64,000 bases of DNA from Roseithermus sacchariphilus (lineage in GTDB: Bacteria; Bacteroidota; Rhodothermia; Rhodothermales; MEBIC09517), in NCBI GenBank assembly GCA_003285105.1, contig CP030158.1, positions 3,020,664 to 3,084,663 on the forward strand, in the 5' to 3' direction. The stretch's first letter is position 1. The number at the start of each line of letters is the position of its first letter. Both the position numbers and the translations under genes were made by a program. Under the pieces are notes generated by a model. It saw only the letters and a list, made by a program, of their open reading frames with translations, was not told where the DNA came from and made no database searches. Below, piece by piece: positions 9,283 to 61,748 of this stretch.

Positions 9283-9312
9283 TGCGCCGCGCACCGGAAC
9301 CCCGGTTCTGGA

Positions 9313-9350
9313 CGAAAGGGGTGGAGGCTTCGGTCTCCACCCCTTTCGTA
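9313..9350 (+). terminator. Intrinsic terminator of the OmpA/PKD gene
   Basis: A perfect 14-bp stem, CGAAAGGGGTGGAG (9313-9326) with CTCCACCCCTTTCG (9335-9348), around an eight-base loop, 30 bp after the stop codon. The A-rich and T-rich arms would also let it act on the opposite strand. Confidence 0.85.
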
Positions 9351-41967: not shown

Positions 41968-43905
41968 ATGCGACGTTTCTTCCTGACGCTGGCCCTCGTG
42001 CTGTGGACGCTCCCCGTGCTGGGGCAGGCCGTGCAGGTCGAGGTCCCCGGCGTGGTCCTGCGCGGCGTGCCCTTCGACGTGACGCTGACGGTCGAGGCGG
42101 CCGAGCCGGCGGTCGATCCGGAGGCGCTCGCGGCAGGCCTGCAGGTGCGGGTCGGCGAGGCGGTGCGGCCGGTCGTCTACGAGGACGGGTCCGGGGCGCT
42201 GACGGCCGAGGGCGTGCGGGCGTCGGAGGCGGGCCCGGTCCGGGTGGAGGTGGTGCAGGACGGGGCCGTGGTGGCGCAGGCCAGCACGCGCGCGCTGCCG
42301 GGGTGGGTGTCCATCCTGCCACCGCTGCTGGCCATCCTCATCGCCCTCGTCTCCAAGCGCGTCATCCCCGCGCTCTTCCTGGGCATCTGGTTCGGCGCCT
42401 GGGCGAGCATCGCCTTTACGCCGGCCGGCCTCTGGCGCGGCCTGCTGGCCAGCTTCGAGACGTACGTCCTCGACGCCCTCACCGACGAAGGCCACGCCTC
42501 GATCATTCTCTTCTCGCTGATGATCGGCGGCATGGTGGGCATCATCTCCAGGAGCGGCGGCATGCAGGGCGTGGTGAACCGGATCGTCCGCTGGGCCCGG
42601 ACCCCGCGCCAGGGGCAGATCGCCACCTGGGCGCTCGGGCTGATCGTCTTCTTCGACGACTACGCCAACACCCTCGTCGTCGGCAACACGATGCGGCCGG
42701 TGACGGACCGCCTGCGCATCTCGCGCGAGAAGCTGGCCTACATCGTCGACTCCACGGCGGCGCCGGTGGCCTGCCTGGCGTTCGTCACCACCTGGATCGG
42801 CTATGAGGTCGGGCTGATCGGGACGGCGGTGGCGCAGATCGAGGGGCTCGACGCCTCGGCTTATTCCATCTTCCTCCATTCCATCCCGTACAGCTTTTAC
42901 CCCATCTTCGCCATCTTCTTCGTGCTGTCCGTGGCGAACTCCCGCCGCGACTTCGGGCCGATGTACCGGGCCGAACTGCGCGCGCGGACGACGGGCCAGG
43001 TCCTCGGCCCCGGGGCGCGGGTGGACGAGGCGGCGGCCGAAGGCGCCGAACTGAAGCCGCCCGAGGGCAAGCCGCAGCGGGCCATCAACGCGCTGCTGCC
43101 GGTGGGCGTGCTCGTGGTCGGGGTGCTGGGCGGGCTGTACGTGACGGGCGAAGGCGAGTCCCTGCGGGACATCATCGGCAGTGCCGACTCCTACAAGGCG
43201 CTCATGTGGGCCTCGCTCCTCGGGGTGCTCACGGCGGCGCTGCTGTCGGTCGTGCAGCGCATCCTGACGCTGGAAGAGACGATCGAGGCCTGGTACGCCG
43301 GGCTGAAGTCGATGCTCTTCGCCATGATCATCCTGCTGCTCGCCTGGGCGCTCTCGGCCATCACCGAAGAACTGCACACGGCGGCCTACCTCACCTCCGT
43401 GCTGGGCGAGCGGCTGCCCTACGGGCTCGTCCCCGGCATCGTCTTCGTCCTCGCCGCGGCCACGGCCTTCGCCACGGGGTCGAGCTGGGGGACGATGGGG
43501 ATTCTGCTGCCGCTGGTGCTGCCGCTGGCCTGGGCGGTCCTCGCCGCCGACGGCCTGCACACGGGCGAGGAATACCTCCACATCATCTATTCGACGACCT
43601 CTGCCGTCCTGGCCGGCTCCGTCTGGGGCGACCATTGCTCGCCCATCTCCGATACCACCATCCTCTCGTCGATGGCCTCGGGGTGCGACCACATCGAGCA
43701 CGTCCGTACGCAATTGCCCTACGCCCTCACCGTCGGGGTCGTCGCCCTGCTTGTCGGCACGATCCCGACGGGCTACGGTTTCCCGTGGTGGCTGTCGATG
43801 CTCCTCGGCCTGGCGCTGCTCGCCGGTGGGCTCCGGTTCTTCGGCCGCCGTGTGGCGGACGAGATCGCCGCGATGGAGGCCGCCGAGGAGGAAGGCGTGG
43901 GATGA
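41968..43905 (+). CDS. NhaC-type Na+/H+ antiporter with exported N-terminal domain
   Basis: A 645-residue protein. The ATG at 41968 begins a signal peptide (MRRFFLTLALVLWTLPVLGQA), then about 85 residues of extracytoplasmic beta domain (VQVEVPGVVLRGVPFDVTLTVEAAEP) before the first helix WVSILPPLLAILIALV. The transport part shows ISRSGGMQGVV, FFDDYANTLVVGNTMRP, SSWGTMGILLPLV and GDHCSPISDTTI, the NhaC landmarks. A charged cytoplasmic loop is visible at about residues 345-370 of this protein. An exported domain on NhaC is unusual. It may sense ions or bind a partner. A TTG start at 41929 would overlap upp and is less likely. Confidence 0.88.
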   Translation: MRRFFLTLALVLWTLPVLGQAVQVEVPGVVLRGVPFDVTLTVEAAEPAVDPEALAAGLQVRVGEAVRPVVYEDGSGALTAEGVRASEAGPVRVEVVQDGAVVAQASTRALPGWVSILPPLLAILIALVSKRVIPALFLGIWFGAWASIAFTPAGLWRGLLASFETYVLDALTDEGHASIILFSLMIGGMVGIISRSGGMQGVVNRIVRWARTPRQGQIATWALGLIVFFDDYANTLVVGNTMRPVTDRLRISREKLAYIVDSTAAPVACLAFVTTWIGYEVGLIGTAVAQIEGLDASAYSIFLHSIPYSFYPIFAIFFVLSVANSRRDFGPMYRAELRARTTGQVLGPGARVDEAAAEGAELKPPEGKPQRAINALLPVGVLVVGVLGGLYVTGEGESLRDIIGSADSYKALMWASLLGVLTAALLSVVQRILTLEETIEAWYAGLKSMLFAMIILLLAWALSAITEELHTAAYLTSVLGERLPYGLVPGIVFVLAAATAFATGSSWGTMGILLPLVLPLAWAVLAADGLHTGEEYLHIIYSTTSAVLAGSVWGDHCSPISDTTILSSMASGCDHIEHVRTQLPYALTVGVVALLVGTIPTGYGFPWWLSMLLGLALLAGGLRFFGRRVADEIAAMEAAEEEGVG

Positions 43906-51974: not shown

Positions 51975-52012
51975 GAGCGGGACACTCATCCAGGGTGTCC
52001 CGCTCTTTTTTT
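51975..52012 (+). terminator. Terminator of the tRNA cluster
   Basis: A perfect 11-bp stem, GAGCGGGACAC (51975-51985) with GTGTCCCGCTC (51995-52005), nine-base loop, then TTTTTTT. It ends the tRNA-His/Glu/Glu transcript. Confidence 0.92.
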
Positions 52013-52060
52013 GTGCAGCCGGTCCGGATGTATCGGGGAGAGAACCCGGTGCGAAACAGA

Positions 52061-52091
52061 AAACCCCGGCGCCGTTCTGGCACCGGGGTTT
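52061..52091. terminator. Second, bidirectional-looking terminator
   Basis: AAACCCCGGCGCC (52061-52073) pairs with GGCACCGGGGTTT (52079-52091) with one C-A mismatch around a five-base loop. A-rich and T-rich ends flank it, so it can work on either strand; it may terminate the DUF4105 transcript from the minus side. Confidence 0.6.
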
Positions 52092-52342
52092 CTGTCCCAT
52101 CCCCACCAACCAACGGAGAGACTGTTGCTCAGACGGTGTGCAGTCGGTCCGGCGCGTTGAATCATGGCTTGTATCATTCAGCCGGATTCCAGACCTGCAT
52201 CGCCGGCACAGCGAGCGGAGGAGTTCCCTGTCGGTCTGATCGGGGGAAAAACAACGAGTGTGCCAAAGGGGAGGCTGCCTGGAATGCCCCGAAAAAGGCC
52301 GGATTACTTCGCTCCGGGGGATGATTTTTCCCGGGAGCGCGC

Positions 52343-52370
52343 CCTTTCTTTCCGCAAGAGGAAAGAAAGG
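52343..52370. other. Perfect 11-bp hairpin after the DUF4105 stop
   Basis: CCTTTCTTTCC (52343-52353) and GGAAAGAAAGG (52360-52370) pair perfectly with a six-base loop, 7 bp past the DUF4105 stop. No poly-T follows directly on the minus strand. It may stabilise the mRNA 3' end. Confidence 0.55.
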
Positions 52371-52377
52371 AGGTCGA

Positions 52378-53562
52378 TCAGCCGGATCGAGGCCGTGCCC
52401 ACCACAGCGCCCGCAGGGCCAGCAGCAGCAGCAGCGGGATGGCAGCGCCCGGGACGCTCTGCGGCAGGGCAACGAAGCCGATGAGAAACACGACGGTCGC
52501 CAGCGCCGTCGCCGCGAAGTAGCGACGCAGCAGCGGCGTTCCGCCGCGCCGGGAGAGCCAGACGGCCGCCACGAGATGGGTGGGCCAGGCCCACGCCAGG
52601 TTCCAGTTCGGGCGGGTGACCGTGTGCTCGGTGCCGGCCCAGAGGTAGAGCAGGAGGACGCCGGCGACGCCGACGAGGCCGAAGAGCCAGGCGTCGGGCC
52701 AGCGGCGGGCGGGCGGTTGCGACCAGGTGCGCACGGTCCACCCGAGGCCCACCGCGAAGAGCGTCCACAGGAGCAGCGCGGGCCAGGGCCACGCACGGGC
52801 AGCGGGGCGGTCCGTCCAGAACACCGTGTCGGTCCGGGCAACGAGCGGGACCGTCTGGCCGTCGCGGGTGAGGGTGGCGTGGGCGAAGGCACGTTGCAGG
52901 TAGTCGGGGAGGAACATTGACTCCCGGGCCGAGGCGATGCGGTCGACGGGGGTTCCCAGGGCCAGGTCGATGCCGAAGTCGAGGAACGGGCGGTCGGCGG
53001 CGTACGGGTCGAGCAACTGCCGGAACGTCCGGTTCGGGGGCGGGACGTCGTCGAAGTGGAGGGCCTCGCCCAGCGTCGCCTCCATCACGTCGCGGATCCG
53101 CGTGGCGCAGTTGTCGAAGAGGAAATCGTAGCGGTAGGTGCGGTTTTCAGGGCGGGCGTTGACCTGCAGGAGGTCGAAGAGGGCCTGCCGTTGCGTGGCA
53201 TCGAGGGCCAGCACCTGCTCGATCACCGGGCGCTGCTCGACGGTGCGGTAGAAGGCCAGCGCACGCGGGTACGACGCCACGGACAGGAAGTAGTCCAGCC
53301 GCCCCTGCACGAACCGGGGCACGAAGGTGAGGGGATGGCCGAAGTCGAAGGTGCCGTAGTTGTAGGTCCAGTCCAGCCCCAGGACGGGGTCGACGATGCG
53401 GATGGCGCTGTGGCCGTACATCGAATAGACCTGGTCGCCGGGGAGGATCGTGAGCAGGGATACCTGCGCTTCGTCCGACAGGGTCTGTGGGTGCTGGCTC
53501 CGGGCAGGACCGGCGGCAAGCAGACCTGCCAGCAGGGTGAGGAGCAGGAAGCGGGCGCGCAC
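52378..53562 (-). CDS. DUF4105 domain membrane protein
   Basis: A 394-residue protein. The GTG start at 53562 precedes a leader (ARFLLLTLLAGLLAAGPARSQ); upstream ATGs run into sequence overlapping the divergent serA-like start. The DUF4105 part (about residues 25-250) shows SLLTILPGDQVYSMYGHSAIRI, YGTFDFGHP, FVQGRLDYFL and LFDNCATRIRD. The C-terminal 150 residues hold four or five transmembrane helices. The GHSAIRI and NCATRIRD motifs fit the NlpC/P60-like papain fold proposed for relatives. Function is unknown; the envelope is likely. Confidence 0.82.
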   Translation of the reverse strand: MRARFLLLTLLAGLLAAGPARSQHPQTLSDEAQVSLLTILPGDQVYSMYGHSAIRIVDPVLGLDWTYNYGTFDFGHPLTFVPRFVQGRLDYFLSVASYPRALAFYRTVEQRPVIEQVLALDATQRQALFDLLQVNARPENRTYRYDFLFDNCATRIRDVMEATLGEALHFDDVPPPNRTFRQLLDPYAADRPFLDFGIDLALGTPVDRIASARESMFLPDYLQRAFAHATLTRDGQTVPLVARTDTVFWTDRPAARAWPWPALLLWTLFAVGLGWTVRTWSQPPARRWPDAWLFGLVGVAGVLLLYLWAGTEHTVTRPNWNLAWAWPTHLVAAVWLSRRGGTPLLRRYFAATALATVVFLIGFVALPQSVPGAAIPLLLLLALRALWWARPRSG

Positions 53563-53758
53563 GGGATCGGGTGGGACGCAGAGGCGGGCAGAACGGCAGG
53601 GCGGCCATCGGGCGGGTGTGGCAACCCCCGGCCCGAGATCAGGTTTCGCCGGAGGGGGGCCCATCCGCGACGGCCTTCGTGGACTCTTCCCGAAACGCCC
53701 GTCCGGGTCGTGGCGTTCGCCCCCGCGTCGTTCGTCACCATTCGCCCCACCGTCAGAC

Positions 53759-55117
53759 ATGGACGCCCACGCCGCTTTCCAGACCCTTCCCGGCGTTCGC
53801 CGGCTGAACCCGCGTTTCGCAAAAGCCCTCATCCTGGAAAACCCTGATCCGAGCCTGGACACTTACCTGCGGGAGCAGGGCATCGAGCCGGACCGCCTGC
53901 CGGAGTCGGCGACGCTGGACGTGGAGGGCGTCATCCGGCGGCTGCAGGAAGGGCAGCACGATCTGTTGTTCAAGCGCAGCCGTTTTCCCGTCGATGAGCG
54001 GGTGGTGCAGGCCTCCCCGCGGCTGGCGGCCGTCCTGCTCTGCTGCATCGGGGACGACTCGGTGGACAAGGAGGCCTGCGCCCGGCACGGCGTGCTCGTC
54101 ATGAACGATCCGGTCAGCAACAGCCGCTCGGTGGTGGAGATGGTCTTCGGGGAGATGATCTGCCTGGCCCGGCGCATCTTCTACGCGCACGATGCCGGGC
54201 GGCGGCACCTGTGGACGAAGGACAACCGGCAGCGGTATGAGCTGAAAGGAAAGACGATCTCCATCATCGGGCTGGGCAACATCGGCAAGCAGGTGGCGCA
54301 GATGGCGGAAGCCTTCGGCATGGAGGTGTACTTCTACGACAAGTCCGACCTGGCCCGGGAAGTGGGCGTCACGCTGGAGTGGAAGGCGTGCAAGTCGCTC
54401 ACGGAGGCGTTTCGCGTCGGGGATTTCGTGACGCTGCATCTCTCGGCCGAGGACCCGCAGGGGATGTCCAACCGCGAGATCATCACCTACGAACACTTCC
54501 GGCAGCTGAGCGCGGACCGGCCGGCCAACAGCCCGCGGACCTTCATCAACGCCGCACGCGGCTTCCTCTACCGCCCGGAAGACCTCAAGCGGGCCATCCA
54601 GGACGGCCATGTGCGGGCGGCAGCCGTGGATGTCTTCCCCGACGAGCCGGGCAGCCCGCACGACGACTGGCAGAACCCGTACGCGGACGTGGACGCCGTC
54701 ATCACCACGCCGCACATCGGGGCGGCCACGCAGGAGGCACAGCCGCGCATCGCCGCGCACGTGGCCGGCACCACGCGGATGTTCAACCTCTACGGCACCG
54801 TGCGCGACACCGTCTTCAGCCCCCGCCGGGTCATCGGCGTCAGCGCCGATCCGCCCTACTGGGCGCTGGCCGTGGTCCACAGCGACCGGCGCGGTACGAA
54901 GAAGGCCATCGACGACGGCATCTACGAGGCCGGCGCCAGCAACCTCCAGTCCAGCCACCGCGACTTTCCCAAGCTGGGCATCGCCTACGACATCAACGCC
55001 ATCGACCGCCCGCTGACCGACGAGCAGCTGGCCGCGATGGTCGAGCGGGCCTGCCAGATCTCCGGCGATCCCACGGCGATCCGCTCCATCCGGCAGTTCC
55101 GCGTGGAGGCTGCCTGA
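53759..55117 (+). CDS. D-3-phosphoglycerate dehydrogenase family protein (SerA-like)
   Basis: A 452-residue D-isomer-specific 2-hydroxyacid dehydrogenase. Its NAD motif is ISIIGLGNIGKQVAQMAEAFGMEVYFYD. TFINAARGF has NAAR where many relatives have N-x-SRG, and the later TTPHIGAATQEAQ gives the catalytic His. A C-terminal regulatory-type extension (about residues 360-452) is present. Most likely the first step of serine synthesis. Residues 1-30 (MDAHAAFQTLPGVRRLNPRF) extend beyond the usual start. It diverges from DUF4105 and converges on the stress cluster; no other ser gene is near. Confidence 0.88.
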   Translation: MDAHAAFQTLPGVRRLNPRFAKALILENPDPSLDTYLREQGIEPDRLPESATLDVEGVIRRLQEGQHDLLFKRSRFPVDERVVQASPRLAAVLLCCIGDDSVDKEACARHGVLVMNDPVSNSRSVVEMVFGEMICLARRIFYAHDAGRRHLWTKDNRQRYELKGKTISIIGLGNIGKQVAQMAEAFGMEVYFYDKSDLAREVGVTLEWKACKSLTEAFRVGDFVTLHLSAEDPQGMSNREIITYEHFRQLSADRPANSPRTFINAARGFLYRPEDLKRAIQDGHVRAAAVDVFPDEPGSPHDDWQNPYADVDAVITTPHIGAATQEAQPRIAAHVAGTTRMFNLYGTVRDTVFSPRRVIGVSADPPYWALAVVHSDRRGTKKAIDDGIYEAGASNLQSSHRDFPKLGIAYDINAIDRPLTDEQLAAMVERACQISGDPTAIRSIRQFRVEAA

Positions 55118-55154
55118 CTGGGCGCCCGGGCTCACGCCTGCTGGTCAGGCGGCG

Positions 55155-55658
55155 TCACGCGGTTTCCGGCGTTCCGGCCGGGGCATCTGGATCGGACAGC
55201 ACGGACTTGCCGCCGACCTTCAGCAGGAACACCGGGCACGGCGCTCGCCGGAGCACCTTGTCCGCCACGCTGCCGAGCAGGTAGTGCGTCAGGCCGGAGA
55301 GGCCGTGTGAAGCGATCACGATCAGGTCCGTGTCGTGCTCCTCGGCGAAGGCGGTGATCTCGTCCGGGGCCTGGCCCTGGCGGACGTGGTACCCGATGCC
55401 GTGCGCCACGTCGGCCTCGCTCACTTCCTCGATCAACTGCTCCAGCGCGGCATGGGCCTGTTCCCGGAGGTCGGGCGCTTTGCCATAGAGGGCTGCCGCT
55501 CCCGCCTGGTAAAACGACGGGAAGGCAGGCTCTTCGAGGACGTAGAGGACGTCGAGATGGGCCTCGAACCGGGCTGCCAGCGCCCGGGCGACGGTCAGCA
55601 CCTCCCGCGCGTGCTCGGAGAAATCGACGGGGGCGAGGATCGAATGGATCTGAAGCAT
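55155..55658 (-). CDS. Universal stress protein (UspA family)
   Basis: A 167-residue UspA-fold protein. SILAPVDFSEHAREVLTVA at the start and the ATP-binding tail IVIASHGLSGLTHYLLGSVADKVLRRAPCPVF (G-2x-G-9x-G-S/T pattern) are complete. The 10 C-terminal residues (DAPAGTPETA) are extra. It lies 5 bp after the BCAM0308-family gene, suggesting cotranscription. Regulation by starvation or low oxygen is typical of such sets. Confidence 0.93.
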   Translation of the reverse strand: MLQIHSILAPVDFSEHAREVLTVARALAARFEAHLDVLYVLEEPAFPSFYQAGAAALYGKAPDLREQAHAALEQLIEEVSEADVAHGIGYHVRQGQAPDEITAFAEEHDTDLIVIASHGLSGLTHYLLGSVADKVLRRAPCPVFLLKVGGKSVLSDPDAPAGTPETA

Positions 55659-55663
55659 GGGCG

Positions 55664-56149
55664 TCAGCGCTCCCAGGCAATCTGGACCTGCGCGTCGCCG
55701 TCGACGTACTCCAGCGCCAGCGTGCCCTTGTAGGATCGAGCCAGCGCCTCGCCAATGCGGCGGGCCAGGTGCGTGCCGGTCGTGGTGATGGCGGCGTGGT
55801 CCTCCTCGTCCGTCAGGTCCATGATGCGTTCGAGGGGGTGGAGGGCCCGTTCCTGCGCGGCCACGTTGCGAATCAGGTTCAGCAGCTCGTCCCGGTGAGC
55901 GGTGTAGAACGGGCCGCGGAGCTCGATGTGACCGGCCGGGTACCGGTCCTCGGTCCGTCGGCACGCGGGGCAGCGCGTCTCGTGGGTGACGGCCTGCGCG
56001 GGGGCGTCCCACGTCCATCGCCCGTCGATGAAAAAGGCGTTGCAGGTCGGGCAGTGGGTGGGGGAGGGCAGCTTCTGGCGGGTGCGGTAGGTGTCGTGCC
56101 GGCGTTCCTTGATGAGCCGGTCGCGGCGTCCGAAATCGCTCTTGAACAT
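55664..56149 (-). CDS. BCAM0308 family zinc-ribbon protein
   Basis: A 161-residue protein following the BCAM0308 pattern as I recall it: FGRRDRLIKERRHDTYRTRQKLPSP, then two zinc pairs, Cys33-Cys36 and Cys60-Cys63, then DRYPAGHIELRGPFYTAHRDELLNLIRNV and the C-terminal TTTGTHLARRIGEALARSYKG. Function is unknown; relatives are found in genomes next to stress and respiratory genes, and the zinc ribbon recalls NMD3-type RNA-binding ribbons. It sits between the Acg-type oxidoreductase gene and the USP gene. Confidence 0.85.
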   Translation of the reverse strand: MFKSDFGRRDRLIKERRHDTYRTRQKLPSPTHCPTCNAFFIDGRWTWDAPAQAVTHETRCPACRRTEDRYPAGHIELRGPFYTAHRDELLNLIRNVAAQERALHPLERIMDLTDEEDHAAITTTGTHLARRIGEALARSYKGTLALEYVDGDAQVQIAWER

Positions 56150-56264
56150 CGCCGTATGCGGTTCTGTGAGCAGACAGGGAACGGGGTGCGACGGAGCGGC
56201 CCGCTCAGCCGGGTGAGCCCGCCGGCGGATCGTGTCGTTCAGACCGGGCGCCGCCGGGGCGGGC

Positions 56265-57305
56265 TCACAGATAGCGGTTGATCGAGAGCATGTCGCCGAT
56301 GGGGCGGCGGGGCGTCTCGCGGGGGGCCTCGCCGTACCCCATGCGCATGACGATCTGCGGGAAGTCCCGTCCTCCGATGAGATCCATGAGCCGGGCTCGC
56401 AGTTCCGGGATCTCGATGGGCTGGTTGAGGAAGGACACGAAGAGGCCATAGTCGGCGGCCATGAGCAGCAGGCCGTCCAGCGCCTGCCCGGCGGCGAGCC
56501 ACTCGACGGCGTTGTCCGCCGTGGTTGACAGCACGAGCAGCGCCGGGGAGTTCTCGGAGAGGAGCCGGTCCTGCTCGGCCTGTTCCTGGCCCCAGTCGAA
56601 CGTGCGGACGAGGATCGGGTCGGTCAGCGAGCGGAGGTCGCCCAGGCCGCGGGCATAGCCGGGGATGCCGTCACGCACCCGGACGAGGTTCGGGTGGATC
56701 CAGCGGGCCAGTTCGCGGCGAAATTCTTTGTTGGCACCCTGGATGCGGTCCCCTTCCGCGATCAGCGCCGCCAGCCGCTTCTTCCGGTCCGGGTCCTGGA
56801 TGACGTGCAGCGTGGCGCCCTCTTCCTGCGCGACGCGCTGCAACGCCTGCAACTCGGCGTCCGGGACGGGGACCGGGTCGAACGGCATCCGGTGGGTGCG
56901 TCGGCGCTTGATCGCCATGAAGCGGCGATGGTCCTCCAGCGTGGCGGCCCGCGGCCGGCCGAGGCGGACGAAGGCGATGAGGTCGGGGTCGTCCAGGTCC
57001 GGGAAGGTCTGGACGACGGGTTCGTAGCCGTAGTGACGGATCGCCACGCGGAGGTGGTAGAGGGCCGTGCCACAGCTCATGATCAGCTCACGCCCCTGCG
57101 GGTCGATCTTCTCCAGCGCCCGCGATCGATCCACGTACAGCTCGATGGTGTCCCCGGCGATGCGAAACAGCCAGGGCTGTGTGTTGTGGCCAGACGGAGC
57201 CAGGACGGCGTAGTGAAGCAGGAACTGCAGCTTCTCGCTCGTCGATCCGTTCCATGGGAAGTCTTCCTCGGCGACGTCCCATGGATTGTTCAACAGATCA
57301 GCCAT
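56265..57305 (-). CDS. Acg family FMN-binding nitroreductase-like protein
   Basis: A 346-residue Acg/Rv2032-type protein: two nitroreductase folds in one chain with one FMN-like site. LHYAVLAPSGHNTQPWLFRI is the classic nitroreductase opening; ELIMSCGTALYHLRVAIRHYGY and LLVLSTTADNAVEWLAAGQALDGLLLMAADYG complete the family pattern. In mycobacteria Acg is dormancy-regulated and may sequester flavin rather than reduce nitro compounds. It lies 115 bp before the BCAM0308-family gene. The start at 57305 gives MADLLNNPWDVAEEDFPW. Confidence 0.92.
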   Translation of the reverse strand: MADLLNNPWDVAEEDFPWNGSTSEKLQFLLHYAVLAPSGHNTQPWLFRIAGDTIELYVDRSRALEKIDPQGRELIMSCGTALYHLRVAIRHYGYEPVVQTFPDLDDPDLIAFVRLGRPRAATLEDHRRFMAIKRRRTHRMPFDPVPVPDAELQALQRVAQEEGATLHVIQDPDRKKRLAALIAEGDRIQGANKEFRRELARWIHPNLVRVRDGIPGYARGLGDLRSLTDPILVRTFDWGQEQAEQDRLLSENSPALLVLSTTADNAVEWLAAGQALDGLLLMAADYGLFVSFLNQPIEIPELRARLMDLIGGRDFPQIVMRMGYGEAPRETPRRPIGDMLSINRYL

Positions 57306-57362
57306 GGCGATACGTTCGGGCGGGTGGATGGAATCCCGGCCCGGGCCGGAGGCACCGGGGGG

Positions 57363-57587
57363 TCAGTTCGGCACGATGGAGGTCATGGGAGAGGCCGGGG
57401 GGCCATCGCGCTCGCCGTCGCTGTGGATGGGGATGACGAGGAGGCGTCCCCGCCGCTCGGGCCGGCCCAGCCGTTCGTCGGGCGCGAGGAGACGGGCCAG
57501 GTGTTCCATGCAGGCGGCGAGGTTGGTCTGCCGGGCCTCCTGCTGCAGCACGTGGTCTCGGTCCAGGCGGGGCTTGTCGATCACCAT
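57363..57587 (-). CDS. Small conserved-looking protein upstream of the Acg gene
   Basis: A 74-residue protein beginning MVIDKPRLDRDHVLQQEARQ and ending SPMTSIVPN. Its middle (LAACMEHLARLLA, GRLLVIPIHSDGE) is amphipathic. Codon use is typical of the other genes here (GAC, CTG, CAG, GTG), unlike non-coding shadows, so it is likely real. It ends 57 bp before the Acg start, same strand. I do not recognise a family and no signal peptide is visible. It may be a small regulator or partner of the cluster. Confidence 0.55.
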   Translation of the reverse strand: MVIDKPRLDRDHVLQQEARQTNLAACMEHLARLLAPDERLGRPERRGRLLVIPIHSDGERDGPPASPMTSIVPN

Positions 57588-57719
57588 GGCGGGAGCCGGA
57601 AACCGGATGGCGGCGTGGATCGGGAACGGCGATGGTTCCTCCTTCGCAACGATACACACGCCACGCGCCCGCCCTTGCGCGGTTCTGACGGTCAAGGATG
57701 TGAGGGGAATGCCATGACC

Positions 57720-57742
57720 CGTGTAGGGTGTACACCTACACG
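57720..57742. promoter_or_regulatory. Operator-like palindrome upstream of the stress cluster
   Basis: GGTGTACACC (57727-57736) is a perfect palindrome, and CGTGTA (57720-57725) and TACACG (57737-57742) extend it to 22 paired bases with one extra G at 57726. It lies 133 bp before the small ORF of the Acg set. The dyad form fits a dimeric transcription factor site. Confidence 0.55.
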
Positions 57743-57825
57743 GGGTCAGGGGAACGGTGACGAAGCGGTGACGCGCCGTGCATCCGTGTCGGAGAGCGCG
57801 CCGGAGCGGCCCGGCGGCCCCGACG

Positions 57826-57858
57826 AAAAACCCCGCCGACGGTGGTTCGGGGCGGGGT
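57826..57858 (-). terminator. Terminator of the barrel-protein gene
   Basis: ACCCCGCC (57830-57837) pairs with GGCGGGGT (57851-57858) around a 13-nt loop. On the minus strand the stem is followed by TTTTT. It lies 14 bp past the stop codon. Confidence 0.8.
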
Positions 57859-57871
57859 GCGGGCCAGCGGT

Positions 57872-58630
57872 TCAGAACCGCCAGGCATACACCAGGCTGA
57901 CGTTCCAGAGCCAGTCCTCGCTCCCGGCGATGCGGGTGTCGATGATCTTGTTGATCAGCACGCCCAGCGAAACGGGCAGGGCGGGGGTGCCCAGCGAGAG
58001 GGTCGAGGCCACGTAGACGCCGTCCTCGTCGTCCAGCCGCAGGTAGTAGACCTGCGGGTTCACCCCGGCGCGCAGCCGGCCGCCGAACAACGTTCCGTTC
58101 AGCCCGGACTGAACCGCCAGAAAGTGGTTGTGGGTGGGCACCGTCGGCTCGAATCCGTAGGAATACAGGTAGTACACCCCGGCCGTGAGGTGTGGGCCGA
58201 TGGCGTACCGGGTCGCCAGCTCGCCCGCCAGAAACCGCCGGGCCACGATCATCTCCTCGGTGCCGCTCCCCGTCTCCACCGTCCGGTTCGTGAAGGACAG
58301 CGCCGGATGCATGCCCAGGCGGACCTGCCACCGCCCGGCCCGGTGCAGGTCGTACCGCCACCAGAAAAGGAAGGACCACGGCTTCCCGTCCTCCAGGGCA
58401 AACCGCAGCTCCGGCTCGAACCGCAGCCGGCGCCCGGCCGACCCGTTGAAGACGACCGCCGGACGTCCCAGCGAGAACGCCGGGACGAACGAAATGCCCT
58501 TGTTGGTGACGCTCACGGCCCCGTGCACCGGTAGCCCGGCCGGGGCATCCTGCGCCCCCGCACGGAGCACCGGGCCGGCGAGCAGCCCCATCAGAAAGAG
58601 CAGGAAGAAACGCGTGGTTTTTACAGGCAT
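57872..58630 (-). CDS. Outer-membrane beta-barrel protein, uncharacterised
   Basis: A 252-residue protein with a signal peptide (FFLLFLMGLLAGPVLRAGAQD) and alternating strands: GAVSVTNKGISFVPAFSLG, WSFLFWWRYDLH, YAIGPHLTAGVYYLYSYGF. It ends DWLWNVSLVYAWRF; the terminal aromatic is a BAM-recognition mark. No family is recognised. It lies 37 bp after the DUF5916 gene on the same strand and could be cotranscribed with it. Confidence 0.75.
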   Translation of the reverse strand: MPVKTTRFFLLFLMGLLAGPVLRAGAQDAPAGLPVHGAVSVTNKGISFVPAFSLGRPAVVFNGSAGRRLRFEPELRFALEDGKPWSFLFWWRYDLHRAGRWQVRLGMHPALSFTNRTVETGSGTEEMIVARRFLAGELATRYAIGPHLTAGVYYLYSYGFEPTVPTHNHFLAVQSGLNGTLFGGRLRAGVNPQVYYLRLDDEDGVYVASTLSLGTPALPVSLGVLINKIIDTRIAGSEDWLWNVSLVYAWRF

Positions 58631-58667
58631 GTTCGTGCTGCTTTTATTTCCGGACGGAGGCCGGTCG

Positions 58668-60869
58668 TTACCAGAGGAACGTATGCGTGTATTTCACCAT
58701 GACGGCCCGCCCCAGCGACCGCGGCGGTACGGGCTGCCAGGCTTCCCGGTCCGTATGCAGCGCTTCGTTGTAGACGATCCACAGGTCCGTTCCGTCGCGG
58801 AAGTTATAGCGCAGGCGCAGGTTCAGGTCGAACTGATCGATGACGCTATTGTACTGCAGGAACGTGCTGAGGGACAGGTGCACGTCGTAGGCGGCGCGTA
58901 CGCGCAGGCGCAGCAGGTGCATGTCGGCCGCCTGGTCCCGTTTCGGGAAACGGATCCGGTTCAGGTTGTAATCCGCGCTCAGCTCCAGATGGCGCGAGAG
59001 GTTCAGGGCAGGCTGCACCAGTACGGACGTCCGGTGTCCGTCGTAGAACGGCCCGGCCGTCACCGCGACGTTGGGTTTGAACGTGGCGCCGGGGCGCGAC
59101 TGGAACGTCAGTTCGGCTTCGTGAAACCAGTAATCGCCGACGGGAATGGTCACTTCCGGGGCGATGGCGAACGCAACGGGCACGCTTTCGTAGTTGGCCC
59201 GGTAGGTCAGGCCGAGGCGATTTCCGCTTTTGAACTCCGCCTCCAGCGCGGGCGCCATCAGCACCGATTCGATCCGGCCGTCCTCGTTGCGGCGAACGCC
59301 CTGGAAGGCTCCCTGCACCGAGAACGTCCGGAGCGGTGAAGTCGCCCCGGCGAACCACAGATACTGGAGCCGGCCGTCCAGCGAGGTAACGTTGCGCCGC
59401 AGGAGAAAGCCGACGGCCGGGTTGAAGGCTTCGCCGGAGCGCACCAGTTCCGCGGCGTAGGAGAGGCCGCCTTCGACGCGGCGCTCCCAGCCCAGCAGCA
59501 GGTGCGAGGCTTCCGGCCAGCTCGGCGTGGCCGGCCCGTCCTCGAACGTATGCGCCAGGCGCAGCGTGAGGTACTCGTCCCCGACGACCCGCACGAGCGC
59601 GTCCACGCCGGAGGCCACGTTGTAGCGACCGTCCTCGGCCACGCGCGAGGTGAGCATCAGGCCGACGTTCGAGTACGGGTTGAACACCCGCTGGCGCAGC
59701 CGCAACACGCCGAAGTTCTCGGCCGGCAGTCCGCCTTCGGCGGCCGTCTGCATGTCGAGCAGGCCGATGTCCGTGCCGCCCCGGCGTCCGACCAGGCGCA
59801 CGCCCCCGAGCAGCCGGATCGGCGTCCCTTCCACCAGCCCGATCCGGCGCGAGTGAAACAGGCGGTTGAACCCGCCGAGTCCGAAGCCGAAGAGCTCGGA
59901 CCGCTCCTGGAAGAACTGTCGCTTCTCCGGAAAGAAGAGCGGGAAGCGCGTCAGGTTGATCTGCTGGTCGTCGGCCTCGACCTGGGCAAAGTCGGTGTTG
60001 GCCGTCAGGTCGAGCGAGAGGCTTGGCGAGGGGCTGTAGCGCACGTCGAGCCCGACCTCCCTGCGGCCGTCCCGGACGATGTCGTAGGCCGTTCGCCCGT
60101 CGTTCAACCGCGCCTGCTGCTGGAGGCCGCCCAGCCCGTAGGGCGTCACGTAGACGGGCGTGTGCCGGTGCACGCCTTCCATCACCACCCGCGCCATGCG
60201 TGAGGGCTTGACCGGGATGAAACCCGCCGGAACGCTCGGGGGCATATCGGGGAAGATGTGCCGCTCGTTCTTGCGCGCGATGAAACGATAGGCCGAGAGG
60301 CCCATTACGACACGCCCGTCCTCTTCCTGAAAGCCGAGGCTGGAAAAGGGGACGCGTATCTCGGCAAACCAGCCCTGGTCGTTCTGGGTCGTGGCGGCAT
60401 CCCAGTACGTATTCCAGTCCCGGTTGAAGGTCGAGAAGTCGCCGTCGTTGGCGATGGTCTGGTCGCCCCGGGTGCCGGCCGGATTGACGCAGAACCAGGC
60501 GGCCGACAGGCGGTCGTTGTAGGTGTCGAGGGCGAAGCAGAAGCGATCGTCCCCGGCGAAGTTGTCCCGGTAGAGCGTCCGGGCGCGGATGCCGCCGGGG
60601 TCCGAGTCGTACAGGCGCCCTGCGACGTACAGGTAGCGGTCGTCATAGGCCACGCGGATCTCGGTGCGTTCCGTGGGCGGCATGCGGTACTGGGGCACGA
60701 AGACGACCAGCGGCAGCGGGGGCACGGCCTCCCAGACCGGCTCATCCACCCGGCCGTCGATCTCCACCGGTCCGCTGAGCCGCACCAGGCGCATCGGGTC
60801 CTGGGCCTGTGCCAGCCCGGTCAGGGCCAGCAGCCATACTAAAAGCAGCAACCAGCAACCAACCCGCAT
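58668..60869 (-). CDS. DUF5916 protein with N-terminal CBM9-like domain
   Basis: A 733-residue outer-membrane protein. A signal peptide (WLLLLVWLLALTGLAQAQD) precedes a CBM9-like domain (about residues 30-200: VEIDGRVDEPVWEAV, VAYDDRYLYVAGRLYDSDP, FAEIRVPFSSLGF). The DUF5916 barrel (about 210-730) includes LDVRYSPSPSLSLDLTANTDFAQVEADDQQINLTRFPLFFPEKRQFF and ends YTHTFLW. The TNTDFAQVE and FFPEKR motifs are family marks. Function is unknown; sugar or polymer binding is suggested by CBM9. ATG at 60869 is chosen; TTG at 60893 is possible. Confidence 0.87.
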   Translation of the reverse strand: MRVGCWLLLLVWLLALTGLAQAQDPMRLVRLSGPVEIDGRVDEPVWEAVPPLPLVVFVPQYRMPPTERTEIRVAYDDRYLYVAGRLYDSDPGGIRARTLYRDNFAGDDRFCFALDTYNDRLSAAWFCVNPAGTRGDQTIANDGDFSTFNRDWNTYWDAATTQNDQGWFAEIRVPFSSLGFQEEDGRVVMGLSAYRFIARKNERHIFPDMPPSVPAGFIPVKPSRMARVVMEGVHRHTPVYVTPYGLGGLQQQARLNDGRTAYDIVRDGRREVGLDVRYSPSPSLSLDLTANTDFAQVEADDQQINLTRFPLFFPEKRQFFQERSELFGFGLGGFNRLFHSRRIGLVEGTPIRLLGGVRLVGRRGGTDIGLLDMQTAAEGGLPAENFGVLRLRQRVFNPYSNVGLMLTSRVAEDGRYNVASGVDALVRVVGDEYLTLRLAHTFEDGPATPSWPEASHLLLGWERRVEGGLSYAAELVRSGEAFNPAVGFLLRRNVTSLDGRLQYLWFAGATSPLRTFSVQGAFQGVRRNEDGRIESVLMAPALEAEFKSGNRLGLTYRANYESVPVAFAIAPEVTIPVGDYWFHEAELTFQSRPGATFKPNVAVTAGPFYDGHRTSVLVQPALNLSRHLELSADYNLNRIRFPKRDQAADMHLLRLRVRAAYDVHLSLSTFLQYNSVIDQFDLNLRLRYNFRDGTDLWIVYNEALHTDREAWQPVPPRSLGRAVMVKYTHTFLW

Positions 60870-60927
60870 ACTCCCGGCATGTGTTTTCGACAACGCGCCC
60901 CGAGTTTACGCAAACCATGCCGGGAGT
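60870..60927 (-). promoter_or_regulatory. 12-bp inverted repeat abutting the DUF5916 start codon
   Basis: ACTCCCGGCATG (60870-60881) and CATGCCGGGAGT (60916-60927) are perfect inverted copies. With GTTT (60883-60886) pairing AAAC (60912-60915) the RNA stem reaches 16 bp. The near arm ends directly at the ATG, so it would occlude the start region. Confidence 0.55.
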
Positions 60928-60934
60928 GGACAGG

Positions 60935-60965
60935 ACGATCTTCCGTCTTTTTTGTACGATCTTCC
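60935..60965. promoter_or_regulatory. Two direct repeats 21 bp apart upstream of the DUF5916 gene
   Basis: ACGATCTTCC occurs at 60935-60944 and 60956-60965, start-to-start 21 bp, i.e. two helical turns. They lie about 66-96 bp upstream of the ATG and are separated by an AT-rich CTTTTTTG tract. This spacing suits a factor binding one DNA face. Confidence 0.5.
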
Positions 60966-60998
60966 AAAATGGGAGTAAATAGATCGCGCAGGCCTGGT

Positions 60999-61748
60999 TC
61001 AGACCGGATCGGACGGAAAGCGGACGCCGGTACACTGCGCGCAGGTTTCCAGAAAGGCCTCCTGCAGGGCCACCTCGTCGGCCAGCGGGTGACAGGGCAC
61101 CTCGCGCATGTGATAGAAATAACGGCCGCTGACCTTTGCCCGCGGATCGTCGCTCACGGCCAGCCAGACTTGCGTGGCCACCCCTTCCTCCAGACTGTCC
61201 GACGCTTCAGGCCCGCCCATCTTCGTCGGTACCCAGCCGGGATCGACGGCATGGGCATACACGTCCGGCCACCGGCGGGCGACGGCTTTCGCCAGGAGCA
61301 CCACGTAAAATTTGGACTCAGCGTAGCCGATGCTCCCGGCGACCAGCCTTTTCAGATCAGGGCGTGCCCCGCGGTGCAGGCCTGAACTCAGGTAGATGAG
61401 CCGCCGTGGCTTTCGGATCAGGCAGGTCAGCAGGTAGGGCGCCAGGGTGTTGACGTTCAGTATTTCGTCGCCGGGCGCCCGATACACGCCCGCATTGTGA
61501 ATGACCGCATCGAACGGCCCGGTCGCATTCGCCGCCTCGGCCAGTTGCTGCACCGCTTCGAGGCGGGACAGATCGCCCACGAGCACGCCTTCGGCTTCCG
61601 GGACGACCGCCTGTGCGTCGCGGGCGCGCTGCGCGTTGCGCGCATGGAGCACCACGCGATGCCCGAGCGCCACCAGCCGCTGGGCGGCCAGTCGCCCGAG
61701 GCCGTCCGAGGAGCCGGTGATCAGCACGCAAAAGCGCTCGGCCGCCAT
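60999..61748 (-). CDS. Short-chain dehydrogenase/reductase
   Basis: A 249-residue SDR. The NAD(P) motif is TGSSDGLG (near residue 11), NAG is at HNAGVY, and the catalytic pair is Tyr and Lys in YAESK. The C-terminal half (YAHAVDPGWVPTKMGG) fits the retinol-dehydrogenase-like group. It begins 4 bp after the hydrolase-cupin stop and closes the operon. Substrate is unknown. Confidence 0.9.
   Translation of the reverse strand: MAAERFCVLITGSSDGLGRLAAQRLVALGHRVVLHARNAQRARDAQAVVPEAEGVLVGDLSRLEAVQQLAEAANATGPFDAVIHNAGVYRAPGDEILNVNTLAPYLLTCLIRKPRRLIYLSSGLHRGARPDLKRLVAGSIGYAESKFYVVLLAKAVARRWPDVYAHAVDPGWVPTKMGGPEASDSLEEGVATQVWLAVSDDPRAKVSGRYFYHMREVPCHPLADEVALQEAFLETCAQCTGVRFPSDPV

Follow-up and report, generated by a model that had tools for sequence, protein, structure and literature searches.

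A candidate operator ahead of acg and universal stress protein genes in Rhodothermia

Among the described systems, the DosR and lxa regulons hold the same kinds of gene as the locus reported here (PMC6127331, PMC4981469, PMC11876180). In mycobacteria, the DosR (DevR) regulon places Acg-type nitroreductases and universal stress proteins (USPs) under one palindromic operator, and in M. avium the gene of a sensor kinase is described among the acg and USP genes. In Burkholderia, the lxa locus is induced by low oxygen and comprises about 50 genes; among these are the gene of BCAM0308, six USP genes and one for a 36-kDa protein whose annotation is flavin or nitro-compound reduction, and CRP-family regulators are proposed there.

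The present locus, which lies in a 4.8-Mb genome assembled as a single contig (G000), resembles both. A first-pass annotation of this DNA had named the mycobacterial dormancy regulon as the precedent, which the gene content of DosR bears out, with lxa being equally close since BCAM0308 is itself an lxa gene. As with DosR, a single palindromic operator is proposed here for acg and USP genes, and HisKA_3 kinases together with NarL-type regulators adjoin acg (in genome G001) or USP units (in the genome of the operon itself). However, the operator sequence differs from the DosR pattern as we take it to be, and genes for BCAM0308 and for COX1-type oxidases are included; compared with the lxa locus, the operon has four genes and its promoter region shows no FNR box (best match with four mismatches). 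By analogy, hypoxic induction and a regulator of DosR type might be expected. In the open-access literature we found no description of such a regulon in Rhodothermia, and among the matches listed for the motif strings none was relevant by title.

The operon and its promoter region

Four genes follow one another on the minus strand of the window, by which we mean the whole 64-kb stretch of DNA analysed, and the run that the first-pass annotation had recognized is borne out by the ORF calls together with the family matches. The first gene is a small ORF of 74 aa (57363-57587, with its ATG at 57587), belonging to a rare undescribed family in Rhodothermia. It is followed by the gene of an Acg-family FMN oxidoreductase with the nitroreductase fold (56265-57305; NF047509, E 1e-100; PF00881), which scores 337.3 bits against the curated NF047509 cut-off of 199, by that of a BCAM0308-family protein (55664-56149; NF040826, E 3.6e-59; 198.8 bits, curated cut-off 100) and by that of a USP (55155-55658; PF00582, E 2.7e-32; 112.7 bits, gathering cut-off 24). 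For the last two genes the better starts, as read from the sequence, are 56149 and 55658. The intergenic gaps are 57, 115 and 5 bp in this order, which makes a single transcript plausible, and the four genes probably form one operon.

On the same strand, a hairpin resembling an intrinsic terminator, recognized by eye at 57826-57857, closes the upstream gene (57872-58630); it has a 7-bp GC stem, a 13-nt loop and a following TTTTT, and the terminator scanner did not list it, its loop exceeding the range of that program. Because the upstream gene ends in this way, the operon would need a promoter of its own, and 57588-57825 would be the promoter region, with the dyad inside. An Rfam search of 52000-61000 gave no match. 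The region also contains a strong Shine-Dalgarno-like GAAGGAGG at about 57638-57645 on the minus strand, some 50 nt 5' of the ATG of the small ORF; no ATG, GTG or TTG follows it at a normal distance, and the ATG of the small ORF is without a clear Shine-Dalgarno sequence.

The dyad, which had likewise been noticed ahead of the first gene and is confirmed there, is an imperfect one of 34 nt (57715-57748) with 13 pairs, one bulge and a 7-nt loop; it lies 127 bp ahead of the small ORF and holds the half-sites GTAGG-N7-CCTAC at 57723-57739. It is one of two stems with at least 13 pairs in the window, and 20 shuffled windows gave three such stems altogether. Taken as single-stranded RNA it has a z of -2.27, with 4 of 200 shuffles equally stable. 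The dyad alone is thus only moderately unusual, and the weight of the argument rests on its recurrence elsewhere. The longest hairpin of the window is another one, at 9312-9349, with 15 pairs, no mismatch and an 8-nt loop.

What recurs is neither the full palindrome nor the core that was first proposed. Across the genome every further match to the full palindrome has at least two mismatches, and such matches do not outnumber those of the reversed control, so that the palindrome was dropped as a genome-wide motif; the scan that had been suggested for it succeeded for the half-sites instead. The putative core GGTGTACACC, with one exact and two one-mismatch sites in the window (a number reached by 10 of 100 shuffles), was given up as well, the conserved part being GTAGG-N7-CCTAC.

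Recurrence of the half-sites

Comparison of promoters revealed that the arms TGTAGG/CCTAC recur, equally spaced, in a dyad ahead of a multi-USP operon at a distance of 36 kb. In the whole genome, exact GTAGG-N7-CCTAC occurs three times (reversed control 12) and the shorter TAGG-N7-CCTA four times (reversed control 92). The three exact sites lie in a tRNA-Met gene, ahead of the present operon, and 199 bp before the multi-USP operon, which encodes eight USP domains in a row (G000:C1:3110255-3114022) out of 21 USP domain matches in the genome; acg and USP genes are therefore preceded here by one and the same exact motif. The site of the multi-USP operon has the consensus inner bases, and those of the dyad ahead of the small ORF depart from the consensus on one side. 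Two HisKA_3 kinase genes of the same genome are each preceded by a site with one mismatch, at 135 and 115 bp from the likely start; these are weaker evidence, and one-mismatch sites do arise by chance, for example at 43706 within a transporter-like gene.

The half-sites are specific in their spacing. In the window and 29 further loci, the exact arms were found eight times with a spacer of 7 and never with spacers of 3-6 or 8-11, while the reversed control gave two at spacer 7 and 12 over all spacers; as the 29 loci were picked around acg, USP or small-ORF genes, this count tests spacing and not location.

In relatives, the motif with at most one mismatch and a spacer of 7 occurs in 10 of 30 upstream regions of acg (450 bp each), against none for the control and 0-1 for other spacers. 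Seven of the ten come from one genus (g3) and the others from G018, G059 and G095, with a distance of 281 bp to acg in G095; the acg of the window is not counted among them, since the small ORF separates it from its site. In one genus the motif precedes both acg and USP genes. Sites preceding acg in G018, G059 and G001 belong to other families of the order. The consensus in relatives is approximately GTAGGGGAATCCCCTAC, with the half-sites TGTAGG/CCTACA separated by 7 bases. In the seven g3 genomes, 13 of the 17 columns of the site are invariant, compared with 51 of 414 across the whole aligned region, and judging from this alignment the site is an island of conservation and a sequence footprint. 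None of 28 upstream regions of BCAM0308 genes carries the motif, nor does the region upstream of the small ORF and acg in G229. In three g3 genomes (L040, L042 and L044), a second half resembling GGATTCCCCTACA follows about 20 bp after the acg site, as if the operator were doubled.

When 25 genomes were searched for exact GTAGG-N7-CCTAC, 89 positions were found versus 243 for the reversed control, so there is no global excess of the motif, which counts against the regulon reading. Fourteen of the 89 fall outside the listed matches (seven in G018, four in G229 and three in G241), and among the 75 matches listed, 20 are look-alikes of the tRNA T-arm, as judged by their letters and in one case confirmed by ARAGORN. 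This leaves 55 listed non-tRNA sites, the contexts of 50 of which were sorted by eye. By that sorting, made with estimated gene starts and no matched positional control, 21 of the 50 stand ahead of a relevant unit: acg in seven cases (the window included), USP genes in six, COX1-family genes in three, a tandem of Rrf2 genes in four, and a membrane protein with a P-type ATPase in one. One of the USP sites (locus L107) lies within an open frame upstream of an uncertain start. The three oxidase sites stand 100, 102 and 118 bp before the COX1-family genes of G053, G011 and G001, whose products we take to be CcoN of the cbb3 type. The four Rrf2 sites lie between the two tandem genes, all in genus g3. 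In the last case (L201, 2172-4920), a near-perfect site is found ahead of what may be an oxidase maturation operon, with a small membrane protein first and a metal P-type ATPase next. The remaining 29 sites are before or within other genes and speak against a regulon; among them are genes for a metallo-beta-lactamase/rhodanese protein, a peroxiredoxin, a CMD-family protein and what is presumably a histidine-ammonia-lyase-like protein. The regulon proposed in the first-pass annotation thus gains from the presence of the half-sites ahead of the multi-USP operon and, conserved in other genera, ahead of acg and USP genes; the observation behind it stands, and the interpretation is partly right, now with a candidate operator that can be tested.

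Candidate regulators and competing explanations

Since the same motif stands before USP operons, acg, COX1/CcoN-type oxidase genes and Rrf2 genes in other Rhodothermia, the operon would belong to a redox or low-oxygen regulon. We estimate a probability of about 0.6 that the dyad is the operator of such a regulon, of the dormancy type, with a factor of the NarL/FixJ type as its most likely binder. Under this proposal a transcription factor would bind the dyad through its conserved part, the inverted half-sites TGTAGG/CCTACA, and from within the promoter region would control all four genes; the factor would be a NarL/FixJ-type response regulator served by a HisKA_3 sensor kinase and would activate the operon when oxygen is low or redox stress prevails, oxygen or nitric oxide being the presumed signal. 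As to the small protein, the simplest guess from its adjacency to acg in two of four genomes is that it may act as a co-operonic partner of Acg.

The basis for a binder of NarL type is that two pairs of PAS/GAF-HisKA_3 kinases and NarL-type regulators stand beside USP clusters of the same genome (L150, 7643-10452, and L151, 4364-7810), with the one-mismatch sites before the kinases. In G001, a PAS-HisKA_3 kinase gene and acg diverge around a site. Known systems offer some likeness. GacA is a regulator of the NarL/FixJ type. The GacA/UvrY box TGTAAG-N6-CTTACA has similar inverted half-sites (TGTAGG here) at nearly equal spacing, but the third-to-last base differs, the spacer is 6 instead of 7, and the targets are different. 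In the NreABC system of staphylococci, a kinase senses oxygen and its response regulator recognizes a GC-rich palindrome; the targets are nitrate and nitrite genes, and the likeness is one of description.

The main rival to a NarL-type binder is a regulator of the Rrf2 family, like NsrR or IscR, reading the operator with nitric oxide or the Fe-S or redox state as the signal, which we consider rather unlikely. The perfect site between the two tandem Rrf2 genes of four g3 genomes is what would be seen at an autoregulated repressor, and one of these Rrf2 proteins has three closely spaced Cys, a feature that marks Fe-S binding. However, the tandem arrangement was seen in one genus only, where the Rrf2 genes could be targets, and the neighbours of acg or USP units, in G001 as in the genome of the operon, are HisKA_3/NarL pairs.

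It is less probable still that the palindrome arose by chance, or forms an RNA hairpin with no regulatory role, and that its likeness to the acg and USP sites of relatives is a coincidence. The three stems of its length in shuffled windows, the uniqueness of the full palindrome in the genome, the inner bases that differ from the consensus and the missing site in G229 all fit such a view. It is opposed by the placement of the sole other exact non-tRNA copy in 4.8 Mb, which has the consensus inner bases and falls in front of the multi-USP operon; the chance of this is about 6e-4 by an estimate made after the fact (some ten stress operons x 300 bp). The acg sites in other families of the order (G018, G059 and G001) also argue against coincidence. 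Control by a CRP/FNR-type factor, as proposed for lxa, or by DosR with its known box would suit a gene content like that of FNR/Anr/FixK- or DosR-controlled regulons, but is highly improbable, as the best matches in the promoter region have four mismatches to TTGAT-N4-ATCAA, two to TGTGA-N6-TCACA and four to GGGACTTNNGGCCC, which we take as the DosR-like pattern.

Returning to the NarL-type reading, its fullest form is a tentative one that we would bet against at present: a DosR-like regulon for hypoxia or dormancy belonging to Rhodothermia itself, in which a NarL-type two-component system acting on GTAGG-N7-CCTAC brings a terminal oxidase under one control with USPs, Acg and BCAM0308, and in which the undescribed 74-aa helix-hairpin protein, first in one operon in this lineage, works with Acg. 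If true, a low-oxygen or dormancy programme comparable to DosR or lxa would exist in Rhodothermia, under an operator that is distinct and can be searched for, and acg and USP genes would have been gathered under unrelated operators in separate phyla. With the 17-bp motif the regulon could be predicted in each genome and tested in a thermophile that can be cultured, and a new small protein is named as a candidate beside Acg.

The family of the small ORF

Against Pfam, PHROGs and NCBIfam the small ORF has no match, and in codon-position GC it resembles the genes around it. Homologues were found in G005 (72 aa), G006 (85 aa) and G229 (72 aa from the chosen Met), which represent three other families of the order and are 27-33% identical to the window protein; in-frame conservation at this level of identity suggests selection on the small protein. 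At the search threshold the family occurs in 5 of 244 genomes of the class, of which four members, the window's included, were kept, and in 2 of 394 genomes of an evenly drawn phylum set; no homologues were found in plasmids. Candidates in G084 (L014/L033) and G097 (L017) were rejected for weak scores and for alignments in which the majority of conserved positions are missing, the latter also lying within other called reading frames. On this comparison the small ORF belongs to a family that is real but rare.

The small ORF stands directly ahead of acg in two of the four genomes, namely in the window and in G229, where the gap to acg is 15 bp and a ferritin-like gene and USP domains come next; the homologues of G005 and G006 have no acg as a neighbour. 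The suggestion that it is a new component of the unit is accordingly upheld as regards a real family with a place before acg in G229, and weakened by its rarity and by the two genomes where acg is missing from its side.

An AlphaFold model built with two sequences predicts a helix at 10-33 followed by a hairpin (mean pLDDT 72) and found no match in the PDB better than E 4.4. The PDB entries that the family profile did match, at E 1.7e-5 to 4.1e-5, are helical repeat proteins of artificial design, and these matches were put down to chance. A lead, only suggestive and drawn from profile comparison, is Spore_YtfJ/GerW (PF09579): hhalign against three members from the order gave a probability of 67.7 over 42 columns with P 4.9e-5, a P that holds for this family alone, which was picked by eye, and 0 of 300 column shuffles did as well. 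The likeness concerns the first half of Spore_YtfJ/GerW, whose glycine-rich second half is absent from the small ORF, and PF09579 itself has no match in the four small-ORF members up to E 10. Proteins of the Spore_YtfJ family (L125, L126 and L127) occur in 3 of 238 genomes of the class, including G229, which also has the small ORF.
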